From positions 1 through 64,000 of the forward strand of contig JAHHGV010000026.1 of NCBI GenBank assembly GCA_019359695.1: 64,000 nucleotides of DNA. Reading direction: 5' to 3'. Shown here in pieces: positions 23,340 through 25,868 of this stretch. A program made the position numbers and the translations under genes. The stretch comes from Brasilonema angustatum HA4187-MV1. Its GTDB lineage: Bacteria > Cyanobacteriota > Cyanobacteriia > Cyanobacteriales > Nostocaceae. Within the stretch, counting starts at the first letter, position 1. Every line of letters begins with the position of its first letter. Below the pieces are notes generated by a model. The model saw nothing but the letters and a program-made list of their open reading frames with translations. It was not told the DNA's origin and did not search any database.

Positions 23340-24308
23340 ATGTCCGTTGACCAAAAAATTAGACAAATAGCATTCTACGGTAAAGGCGGTATCGGTAAGT
23401 CCACCACCTCTCAAAACACCCTCGCTGCTATGGCAGAAAAGGGTCAGCGCATTTTGATTGTGGGATGCGACCCAAAAGCTGATTCCACCCGTTTGATGCT
23501 CCACAGCAAAGCCCAAACGACCGTACTTCACCTCGCCGCTGAGCGGGGCGCAGTAGAAGATTTGGAACTCGAAGAAGTGATGCTCACCGGCTTCCGTGGT
23601 GTACGTTGCGTAGAATCTGGTGGTCCCGAACCTGGTGTTGGTTGCGCTGGTCGTGGTATTATCACCGCCATCAACTTCTTAGAAGAAAACGGTGCTTACC
23701 AAGACGTGGATTTCGTTAGCTACGACGTGTTGGGTGACGTTGTCTGCGGTGGTTTCGCTATGCCTATCCGTGAAGGTAAAGCACAAGAAATCTACATTGT
23801 GACCTCTGGTGAAATGATGGCGATGTACGCTGCTAACAACATCGCTCGCGGTATTCTCAAGTATGCTCACTCTGGTGGTGTGCGCTTGGCTGGTCTGATT
23901 TGTAATAGCCGCAAAACTGACCGGGAAGACGAACTGATTAGCACACTAGCATCCCGGTTAAGCACCCAGATGATTCACTTCGTCCCCCGTGACAACATCG
24001 TGCAACACGCTGAGTTACGCCGGATGACTGTGAACGAGTACGCACCTGATAGCAATCAAGGTAACGAATACCGTGCATTAGCAGACAAGGTTATCAACAA
24101 TAAAATGCTTGCCATTCCTACACCCATTGAAATGGAGGAGTTAGAAGAGTTGTTGATTGAATTCGGTATTCTCGAAAGCGAAGAAAATGCCGCAAAACTG
24201 ATTGGCGTCGCCCAAGCTGAACAAGATGCCGAGAAAAAGCAAGAAGATCTTGAAGGCGAAGCGTTAGAAGCATTGAAAAAAGGCAACGTAGAAGTTGTTA
24301 AGAAGTAA
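23340..24308 (+). CDS. nifH: NifH-family nitrogenase iron protein with extended C-terminus
   Basis: A 322-residue dinitrogenase-reductase-type ATPase that donates electrons to a NifDK/NifEN-like partner. The P-loop is intact (GKGGIGKST, residues 14-22), as are both Fe4S4-ligating cysteines, Cys102 (GVGCAGRG) and Cys136 ([10 protein letters not shown]), and the Arg105 that can be ADP-ribosylated. The core matches cyanobacterial NifH closely. Usual NifH ends near residue 290; this one has roughly 33 extra residues, charged and helix-prone ([18 protein letters not shown]). The next gene is a NifE-like protein, not nifD/nifK, so this is an accessory or alternative copy (nifH2/vnfH-like). A T-tailed hairpin follows before that gene. 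Family certain; physiological partner uncertain. Confidence 0.92.
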
Positions 24309-24480
24309 GTCAGTGCGCTACGGAACGCTGGTAAAGATGATGTGGAGGTAGTCTGATGGCTGATGTATAGTTCTACTATTTCTAGGTTTTCCGTGTCAGC
24401 ATGAATCTGTAAATGTTCGCGCGGTAAAACGATTAGTTTAATTTTTTGTTTTCTCCTTTTATTGGTTGGTTACATTTTGG

Positions 24481-24516
24481 GGAATGGGAAATCGCTCTTT
24501 TCCATTCCTTTTTTTT
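24481..24516 (+). terminator. T-tailed hairpin between the nifH-like and nifE-like genes
   Basis: Stem GGAATGG / CCATTCC, extended by GAAA/TTTT pairing, and followed by eight T. It lies 173 bases after the nifH-like stop and 30 before the nifE-like ATG. It would end most nifH transcripts or lower nifE expression relative to nifH. Confidence 0.7.
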
Positions 24517-24545
24517 ACCGATGTTTCTAGAGAATTTCTACTTGC

Positions 24546-25868
24546 ATGAAAAGTGAAGACGTATTTAATAAAAACCCAGATCACAAAACGCAGAATCGAG
24601 AATCTATCCTGAGAGAAGGTCAAGAAGATTGTGCTTTTGATGGTGCAATGCTTACTTTAGTACCGATTACCGATGCTGCTCATTTAATTCACGGACCAAG
24701 CGGTTGCATCAACAATTGTTGGGGAAATCGCAGCAGTCTCTCTTCTAGTTCCATGCTATATAAAGCTCGTTTTACCACTGAGATGGATGAAAACGATATC
24801 ATCTTCGGTGGAGCAAAAAAGTTATACAACGCCATTATAGAAACGCAAAGACGCTACAAACCTGCTGCGGTATTTGTCTATTCTACCTGCGTTTCTGCCC
24901 TTATCGGTGATGACCTTAATGGAGCCTGCACAGACGCTGCTGTGCAAACAGGAACTCCGATTATTCCTGTAGACTGTCCCGGATTTGTTGGTCGTAAAAA
25001 TCGCGGTATGCGCATCGCTGGTGAAGCTTTGTTGGAACACGTTATAGGCACAGCGGAACCAGACTTTACTACACCTTATGATATTAATCTTATCGGTGAA
25101 TCCAACATTGCTGCAATGTGGAACATTCTACCGCTATTTGAAAAATTAGGTATCCGAGTCCTCTCCAAAATTACGGGTGATACTCGCTACAAGGAAGTTT
25201 GTTATGCCCATCGTGCCAAGCTGAATGTGATCACCTCTTCCAAAGCACTGCTTAAAATGGCAAAAAAGATGGAAGAACGCTTTGGTATTCCATACATTCA
25301 AGAGTCTTTCTACGGTATAGAAAACATCAATCAAAGCTTACGGAATATTGCTGCTAAGTTGGGAGACTCCGACTTACAAGAACGTACAGAAAAATTTATT
25401 GCCTTAGAAACTAGTGCTTTAGAAGAGAAACTTGCTTTTTATCGCACTTCTGTGCAAGGCAAACGTATTGTTATTGATACACAAGAACTGAAAAGTTGGT
25501 CAATTATCTCGGCAGCTCAAAAATTAGGGATAGAACTTATCCCTATCAGCGCTGTTAAAAGTAGTCAGGAGGATAAAGCAAGAATTCAAAAGTTGCTGGG
25601 TAAGGATTGCATTATTCTCCAACAAAATACTCCAGAGGAAATTCTACAGATAATTAACGACAATAAAGCAGATATGTTAATTACAGCAGAACGCTATCAA
25701 TACACCTCTGTTAAAGGTGAGATTCCTTCATTAGATATAAAGGCAGAACAAAATCATTCTTATGCAGGCTATGCAGGAATTTTAGAAGCGGCACAAAAAC
25801 TGTATGCAACTCTTACCAGCCCTGTATGGAAACTAGTACACAAACCCACCCCGTGGGAAAACAGATAA
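24546..25868 (+). CDS. NifE-like nitrogenase-superfamily protein, cofactor Cys replaced
   Basis: A 440-residue member of the NifD/NifE family and clearly NifE-type (HGPSGC, FVYSTCVSALIGDD, SPGFVG-like DCPGFVG, CYAHRAKLN, IPYIQESFYGIENI). Cys29, Cys54 and Cys115 keep the positions that bind the interface Fe-S cluster in NifEN, and Cys58 is an extra. In usual cyanobacterial NifE the motif LNVMICSKAL carries the Cys equivalent to NifD Cys275, the ligand of the cofactor or its precursor. Here it reads LNVITSSKAL, with Ser231. The short N-terminus also lacks the usual Cys/His-rich lead. No NifN partner is encoded nearby. A classical FeMo-co scaffold role is therefore doubtful. It may pair with itself, or with a distant NifN/NifK, and take electrons from the adjacent NifH. 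Confidence 0.88.
   Translation: MKSEDVFNKNPDHKTQNRESILREGQEDCAFDGAMLTLVPITDAAHLIHGPSGCINNCWGNRSSLSSSSMLYKARFTTEMDENDIIFGGAKKLYNAIIETQRRYKPAAVFVYSTCVSALIGDDLNGACTDAAVQTGTPIIPVDCPGFVGRKNRGMRIAGEALLEHVIGTAEPDFTTPYDINLIGESNIAAMWNILPLFEKLGIRVLSKITGDTRYKEVCYAHRAKLNVITSSKALLKMAKKMEERFGIPYIQESFYGIENINQSLRNIAAKLGDSDLQERTEKFIALETSALEEKLAFYRTSVQGKRIVIDTQELKSWSIISAAQKLGIELIPISAVKSSQEDKARIQKLLGKDCIILQQNTPEEILQIINDNKADMLITAERYQYTSVKGEIPSLDIKAEQNHSYAGYAGILEAAQKLYATLTSPVWKLVHKPTPWENR

Follow-up and report, generated by a model that had tools for sequence, protein, structure and literature searches.

A 64,000-nucleotide stretch of the genome of Brasilonema angustatum HA4187-MV1 (the window; contig C89 of genome G000) carries nifE2, a gene for a NifE paralogue, downstream of a nitrogenase Fe protein gene, nifH2. 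As aligned with NifE of Azotobacter, NifE2 has lost the cysteines that hold the NifB cofactor (NifB-co) and the L-cluster, namely the equivalents of C15, C25 and C250, and has kept the three ligands of the O-cluster. It is very probably a cofactor-blind, NifEN-like "pseudo-maturase", a body with only an O-cluster that would be unable to hold NifB-co. NifE2 belongs to a class, called E2 here, that occurs in at least 57 of 217 genomes of the family, about a quarter, with the recurring module order vnfR-nifH2-nifE2-nifN2. With confidence somewhat short of even, we regard the module as a molybdenum (Mo)-controlled NifHEN-like complex of heterocyst-forming cyanobacteria whose scaffold no longer binds cofactor. 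Its role would be that of a regulatory pseudo-maturase holding Mo-cofactor assembly in check, or that of a [4Fe-4S]-only reductase derived from a real NifEN.

The available parts of two structural papers on Azotobacter NifEN (PMC13128457; PMC13031127) assign the ligands. NifE C37, C62 and C124 hold the O-cluster, a [4Fe-4S] cluster; C15 and C25 bind NifB-co on its arrival, close to the surface; and C250 together with Q419 holds the L-cluster inside. The features of the window that bear on these ligands are given below with A. vinelandii NifE numbering for the equivalent positions and with counts from the aligned sequences (rows) of the E2, E1 and E3 classes described further on.

21679-22809, + strand: vnfR-like gene, 376 amino acids, with an XRE helix-turn-helix and a PBP_like domain (PF12727); putative Mo-dependent repressor.
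23340-24308, + strand: nifH2 (vnfH), nitrogenase Fe protein of 322 amino acids with a C-terminal tail; matches profile TIGR01287.
24546-25868, + strand: nifE2, NifE paralogue of 440 amino acids; matches profile TIGR01283 and falls on the E2 branch.
24630-24632, + strand: codon of Cys29, equivalent to the O-cluster ligand C37; Cys in 59 of 60 E2 rows, the remaining row being truncated there.
24705-24707, + strand: codon of Cys54, equivalent to the O-cluster ligand C62; Cys in 60 of 60 E2 rows.
24888-24890, + strand: codon of Cys115, equivalent to the O-cluster ligand C124; Cys in 60 of 60 E2 rows.
24975-24977, + strand: codon of Cys144, at A. vinelandii NifE position 153; Cys in 45 of 60 E2, 0 of 33 E1 and 0 of 8 E3 rows.
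25236-25238, + strand: codon of Ser231, at the C250 position; the inner L-cluster ligand is lost.

Both open reading frames of a preliminary description of this locus lie at these coordinates, and the NifH is complete. NifH2 passes the NifH equivalog model TIGR01287 (462.4 bits; cut-off 394.35), and NifE2 passes the NifE model TIGR01283 (524.5 bits; cut-off 505.1). The cysteines of NifE2 are at residues 29, 54, 58, 115, 128, 144, 219 and 355, with none at 231. The preliminary description correctly recognized that Cys29, Cys54 and Cys115 are kept and that Ser231 occupies the position of the cofactor cysteine. The sequence around it reads KLNVITSSKALLK, versus KLNVIICSKALLN, with Cys, in NifE of the genome's own nif cluster. 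A NifE-like subunit that accompanies NifH and differs from canonical NifE, with the interface-cluster site kept and the cofactor cysteine lost, is therefore confirmed. The equivalents of C15 and C25 are also gone, there being no cysteine before residue 29, and Q419 is replaced by Ala. Of what marks a functional NifE, the protein has the profile score and the O-cluster ligands, and it lacks C250, C15/C25 and an adjacent NifN. Cys144 sits in the loop before K160/N164; NifD carries a cysteine at about the same place. Window NifE2 is 96% and 88% identical to the records of Brasilonema CT11 and B. bromeliae. Ser at the C250 position is common to all four nifE2-bearing Brasilonema genomes, and these together with the whole E2 group exclude a Brasilonema-only mutation or a sequencing error.

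The class was delineated by searching for NifE2 in named genomes (Brasilonema CT11, B. bromeliae, Fischerella muscicola PCC 7414 and Komarekiella), in plasmids, where Nostoc C057, C052 and UHCC 0926 gave the best matches, and in the 217 family genomes. The family search was also run with a Nostoc E2 query, after which the second matches of 35 genomes were considered and 20 stretches of these taken in. E2 counts are minimum values from the best-ranked matches, the remaining second matches being outside the sample. An E2 row had to hold a long NifE-like open frame with more than 370 amino acids matched at more than 50% identity; the fragment row of the window's own locus (L015) was left out. The first 48 rows represent 45 genomes, two second copies and the Nostoc C057 plasmid record, and 12 divergent rows were added to give 60. 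Rows were assigned to E2 or to E1 (the other NifE rows, mostly from nif clusters) by gene neighbourhood and not by ligand residues; L063, whose contig ends before nifH, was assigned to E2 by hand.

A vnfR-like sequence lies upstream of nifH2-nifE2 in 44 of the 60 rows (partial in two of the 44); the flank is too short in 16, and the gene is missing in none. A nifN-like sequence follows in 54 rows, a few of them partial or broken, and the exceptions are four Brasilonema rows, L161, and L077, which reaches its contig end. In the tree, E2 forms one side of a single branch (support 100/100 with 49 rows; 100/99 with 43 rows, once the set had been extended by divergent members and thinned of similar ones). 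No E2 was found outside the family in a 388-genome class sample, in which each matching outside genome had exactly one NifE match at E<=1e-150, with four candidates scored per genome. According to the preliminary description, the novelty of the gene would fall if it grouped within a normal NifE lineage, with nifN elsewhere and relatives sharing the substitution. A nifN does lie elsewhere in the genome and the relatives also lack the cysteine, but they form their own group (100/99) outside the normal NifE lineage.

All six ligand cysteines are present in 33 of 33 E1 rows and in 8 of 8 rows of E3, a third NifE type. E2 rows carry C15 in one case, C25 in six and C250 in two of 60, the N-arm positions aligning loosely. 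The residue at C250 is S in 51 rows, F, D and C in two each, and A, P and G in one each; non-Cys residues thus occur in 58 of 60 E2 rows versus 0 of 33 E1 and 0 of 8 E3 rows. Judged from this alignment, the Ser231 observation exceeds chance. L161 (genome G192) has a Cys in register at position 250. In L168 (G081), one Cys is C15-like and another, near 250, is displaced by a one-residue deletion; L168 branches nearest E1 on a long branch, and its placement is unsure. Since L161 and L168 retain these cysteines, the alignment indicates that ligand loss within E2 is stepwise and not one event. Loss of Cys250 had looked universal (48 of the first 48 rows) until the 12 divergent rows added two with Cys, and a Cys at position 153 that had seemed group-wide (45 of the first 48) became 45 of 60.

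Constraint differs along the protein. Of the positions that are invariant in E1, E3 and Azotobacter, E2 retains none of the 7 in the N-arm; beyond it, the figures are 38 of 54 for residues 37-195, 20 of 44 for 196-325 and 9 of 49 for 326-460 (37-195 versus 326-460, Fisher p 1.4e-7, relatedness ignored; the domain borders are approximate and our own). By this comparison the O-cluster part is best kept, and the cap over the cofactor cavity (326-460) is relaxed. NifN2 carries the Cys44 equivalent in 41 of 41 rows and Ser41 in 40 of 41, counted before the 12 divergent members joined. The ligands of the O-cluster are intact in both subunits, the module has a dedicated Fe protein, and NifE2 is under purifying selection, all of which would suit a reductase in which NifH2 acts through the O-cluster of NifE2(N2) on a small substrate in the emptied cavity, after the logic of dark-operative protochlorophyllide oxidoreductase (DPOR) and CfbCD. 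New residues common in E2 (Tyr at R70 in 38 of 60 rows, Asn at K357 in 36 of 60) also fit, and shared ancestry may explain them. We consider such a reductase unlikely and rank it lower, since a relaxed cavity argues against a pocket conserved for a substrate: relaxation is greatest in the cap, and the several residues seen at position 250 (S, F, D, A, P, G) would not be expected in a shared pocket. Moreover, no substrate-pathway gene was recognized next door, and NifE2 is below the DPOR and CfbD cut-offs. Membership in CfbC/CfbD, to whose logic the preliminary description likened the pair, can be set aside on scores (CfbC 360.4 versus a cut-off of 402; CfbD, TIGR03282, 57.8 versus 268.4). Membership was likewise rejected for DPOR (BchL 206.8 versus 345.15; BchB 74.4 versus 490.35; BchN 43.9 versus 419.95) and for the catalytic subunits NifD (271.2 versus 653.55), VnfD (212 versus 823.1) and AnfD (183.8 versus 873.8).

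Ratios of nonsynonymous to synonymous substitution (dN/dS) were calculated pairwise by the Nei-Gojobori method with our own script. In Brasilonema they are 0.136-0.273 for NifE2 (six pairs from four genomes, some with dS of only 0.06), 0.035-0.102 for NifE1 (15 pairs), 0.090-0.201 for NifH2 (six pairs) and 0.082-0.247 for VnfR (three pairs). In Nostoc they are 0.182-0.257 for NifE2 and 0.078-0.116 for NifN2 (three pairs each). These values indicate that NifE2 is under purifying selection, looser than that on NifN2 or NifE1, and with dN/dS well below 1 a plain pseudogene was rejected. Among the rivals, a decaying backup ranks highest, above all for Brasilonema and G192: vnfR-nifH-nifE-nifN would once have been a spare set for Mo shortage, with NifE2 eroding and near its end in Brasilonema after the loss of nifN2. 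This account agrees with the stepwise loss of ligands and with the cysteines kept by the early-branching but uncertainly placed L168. It remains doubtful given the dN/dS values in both Brasilonema and Nostoc, a NifN2 about as constrained as canonical NifE, and O-cluster cysteines intact in every row that reaches them. The open frames themselves are no independent evidence against decay, because rows were chosen for long open frames.

The fate of nifN2 bears on the same question. Four of seven Brasilonema genomes have nifE2. All seven show a single strong NifN match apiece (E<1e-200), which in the present genome lies in the nif cluster on contig C83; weaker NifN matches are, in our own reading, of the NifK/VnfK type. 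Neither a NifN nor a clear remnant was detected at 25866-30000 of the window (best tblastn E 1.2), which excludes a nifN remnant directly 3' of nifE2. The flanks in the other Brasilonema genomes gave nifN matches no better than E 0.29; with these queries a real remnant, that of L135, scored E 1e-23 or better. As far as these searches tell, Brasilonema appears to have lost nifN2 secondarily, and G192 is also without nifN beside nifE2. Elsewhere, nifN2 is broken or partly duplicated beside each of the two E2 copies of G121 (L038 and L063), and the vnfR frame is split in L060 and partial in L077; these cases, too, agree with decay. G211, which has vnfE, carries a nifN remnant in two pieces (L135:3010-3556) downstream of vnfH, with no nifE2 there. 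Because G211 retains this remnant, the module seems to be ancestral in part of the family and to be undergoing loss in places.

The preliminary description had suggested a two-component enzyme of NifH and a homodimeric NifE-like protein, and it called the pair orphan, noting no nifN, nifD or nifK. Absence of these genes is true of the window but not of the genome. The search for nifDK and vnfDG that it proposed recovered nifD and a split nifK on C83 and the end of vnfDG on C78. With nif and vnf genes elsewhere in the same genome, "orphan" is wrong, and the idea of orphan genes in a genome without nifDKN is excluded. A two-component enzyme could draw on the single strong NifN match in each of the seven Brasilonema genomes, with none beside nifE2 in the four carriers or beside L161, and on the selection still acting on NifE2 in Brasilonema. 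It is very improbable, however: the genome itself supplies a canonical NifN, and as an original design it is unsupported because nifN follows in 54 of 60 E2 rows and Brasilonema apparently lost its copy secondarily.

The regulator suggests control by molybdenum. The vnfR-like product (Pfam PBP_like 215.4 bits, HTH_3 51.8 bits) is a putative VnfR-type Mo-dependent repressor by homology to VnfR1 and VnfR2 of Anabaena variabilis. According to PMC4284476, vnfR2 of that organism precedes vnfH, and both VnfR proteins act with molybdate as repressors of vnfDG; VnfH, which works with the vanadium nitrogenase (V-nitrogenase), is interchangeable with NifH1. The closest suggestion of the preliminary description was accordingly a regulator or an alternative-nitrogenase module, in that a VnfR-like gene stands directly upstream, as in vnfR2-vnfH. 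Window nifH2 adjoins vnfR in a genome with vnf genes, and it is a VnfH candidate because of both. Its C-terminal tail is common to nifH2 proteins.

Of the 217 family genomes, 37 have vnfE, presence being judged at E<=1e-150 from seven scored candidates in each genome. E2 and vnfE occur together in 27 genomes, E2 only in 30, vnfE only in 10 and neither in 150, E2 being a minimum. E2 is thus enriched with vnfE (27/57 versus 10/160; odds ratio 13.5, Fisher p 4e-11, relatedness ignored). This enrichment would suit a weak cofactor conduit, in which NifE2N2 passes on NifB-co or mature cofactor through weaker ligands (Ser, Gln) with faster release, for example to V-nitrogenase. So would the conservation of K252 (42 of 48 rows), R165 (46 of 48) and Q419 (30 of 60). 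The conduit is nonetheless improbable. In Azotobacter, the C250A exchange inactivates formation of the iron-molybdenum cofactor (FeMo-co), as PMC13128457 reports, and most E2 rows are, in addition, without either N-arm ligand. The vnfE-bearing G211 has only the nifN remnant, and no nifE2, beside vnfH. In addition, 30 of the 57 E2 genomes have no vnfE match, including the three-contig Brasilonema genome G021 with its vnfR-nifH2-nifE2. G021 is also without a vnfK-like match, although this is weak evidence, as G020, which has vnfE, equally shows none. By these counts E2 is not tied to V-nitrogenase alone.

The explanation that we consider best overall, although we would put it a little below an even chance, is a pseudo-maturase with a non-catalytic competitor or docking role under Mo shortage. 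If NifE2 is a pseudo-maturase, such a role is about as probable as its absence. By homology, NifE2 would assemble a NifEN-like body with an O-cluster, alongside NifN2 in most genomes; in Brasilonema the partner may be the NifN of the nif cluster, or NifE2 may form a homodimer. This body would still dock the Fe protein and could not mature FeMo-co. Mo shortage would lift VnfR repression, and NifE2 would be made together with VnfH. Most likely, though less certainly, NifE2 would then occupy NifH, perhaps also NifB, NifX or NifN, without accepting NifB-co. With NifH occupied, the Mo-cofactor branch would be restrained during Mo shortage, and NifB-co would be left for other scaffolds where these are present.

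Several observations weigh against this explanation. Competition for NifH, NifB or NifX is the less certain part and a proposal only, and the expression, binding and structure of NifE2 are predictions; an AlphaFold model from a five-sequence E2 alignment had a mean predicted local distance difference test (pLDDT) score of 35.5, too low to check the fold or the pocket. In Azotobacter, as PMC13128457 and PMC13031127 report, loss of the C15/C25 arm does no more than slow the onset of diazotrophic growth, and some L-cluster was still present in Cys-to-Ala variants at that site. Arm loss alone is therefore no proof of blindness, and because arm removal is mild there, C250 is the weightier loss. Six E2 proteins retain the C25 equivalent, so cofactor blindness is not universal, and L161 and L168 keep the cysteines described above. 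NifE2 is also the least constrained gene compared in the module, and the enrichment with vnfE fits a role in V-nitrogenase.

E2 can be compared with several known systems. NifE2 resembles NifE of NifEN, from A. vinelandii and cyanobacterial nif clusters, in sequence family, O-cluster cysteines and the NifE model; the window protein differs in lacking the equivalents of C15, C25, C250 and Q419, in its degenerate N-arm, in its linkage to a vnfH-type gene and in having no adjacent nifN. The locus shares with vnfR2-vnfH of A. variabilis ATCC 29413 (PMC4284476, available text) a vnfR directly upstream of a second Fe protein gene, but in the window NifE2 comes next; in G211, which we take for a relative of A. 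variabilis, vnfH is followed by the nifN remnant only. Cyanobacterial VnfE is of the same cofactor-scaffold family, and the same text reports that vnf genes are Mo-repressed in A. variabilis; VnfE, however, is about 26% identical to window NifE2 and retains the cofactor Cys. NifEN-like sets without FeMo-co ligands are already known from Firmicutes and Archaea: the available part of PMC3464626 describes cluster cysteines without a cofactor ligand near a NifH-like gene. Those are described as diverse nitrogenase-like sequences, whereas E2 stands beside true cyanobacterial NifE in the present tree and adjoins the gene of a true Fe protein. Among the titles and abstract beginnings listed in the open-access literature, no paper naming the cyanobacterial E2 class or the gene pair was found. 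A conserved cyanobacterial vnf cluster with many uncharacterized genes has been reported (PMC6645180, figure 1d), and E2 may be among those unnamed genes.

Other nif and vnf genes of the genome were named by similarity and gene order. A PF00148 profile search of G000 gave 13 places. Contig C83 carries nifH, nifD, a divided nifK, nifE and nifN; C78 carries the end of vnfDG, then vnfK, vnfE and vnfN; and C34 carries the third NifE (E3) with nifX-like and ModA-like genes. Strong Fe-protein family matches number three: nifH on C83, window nifH2 and one on C25, which is taken for ChlL. The nifK pieces (C83:14868-15077 and 68512-69594) are separated by about 53 kb, and a serine-recombinase-like gene lies next to the distal one, an arrangement like that of a developmental excision element. 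In G020 and G025 the proximal nifK match stops at the same point, but it is nearly full length in G021-G024. In eight genomes (G012, G013, G014, G015, G019, G192, G193 and G198) the NifE match starts at residue 169-171, with the N-terminal part missing, as if an element interrupts nifE. The E3 loci are G000:C34:1194-2615 (L138:1197-2705), L024:529-1920, L135:941-2371, L029, L167, L173, L174 and L175, and several lie beside a ModA-like and/or nifX-like gene. E3 keeps all six cysteines and has His at Q419, the place of NifD's His ligand; the rows were picked by this His, which is thus no independent result. The eight E3 rows form one clade (100/100).

Further features of the window surround the module. 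A modA gene (18972-19868) lies upstream of vnfR; in two other Brasilonema loci (L022 and L136) modA likewise adjoins the module. A 150-amino-acid protein (31457-31909) has as its sole domain match the Orange carotenoid protein N-terminal domain (Carot_N, 150.6 bits). One further feature lies between nifH2 and nifE2.

24479-24510, + strand: hairpin followed by a T run, found by pattern scan only.

This hairpin is a possible terminator, attenuator or RNA-processing site. The pattern scan over 21050-26050 gave five occurrences versus a mean of 3.8 in shuffles, which is no evidence of function, and a promoter scan gave seven matches versus a mean of 9.1 in shuffles.

The module genes on the Nostoc plasmid records C057 and C052 are annotated simply nifE and nifN, and because of such labels, surveys of gene presence may count nifE2 and nifN2 as working maturases. 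E2 provides natural NifE variants that are mostly without L-cluster ligands and keep those of the O-cluster, and hence tests of NifEN roles beyond holding the cofactor. The variant set is useful because the two structural papers of 2026 (PMC13128457, PMC13031127), in their available parts, place L-cluster handling at C15/C25 and C250. If either role is real, the regulatory brake or the [4Fe-4S]-only reductase, it is one that is not known to be assigned to such a NifEN relative. The class also suggests that heterocystous cyanobacteria have a level of regulation that links the supply of Mo to the assembly of the cofactor.

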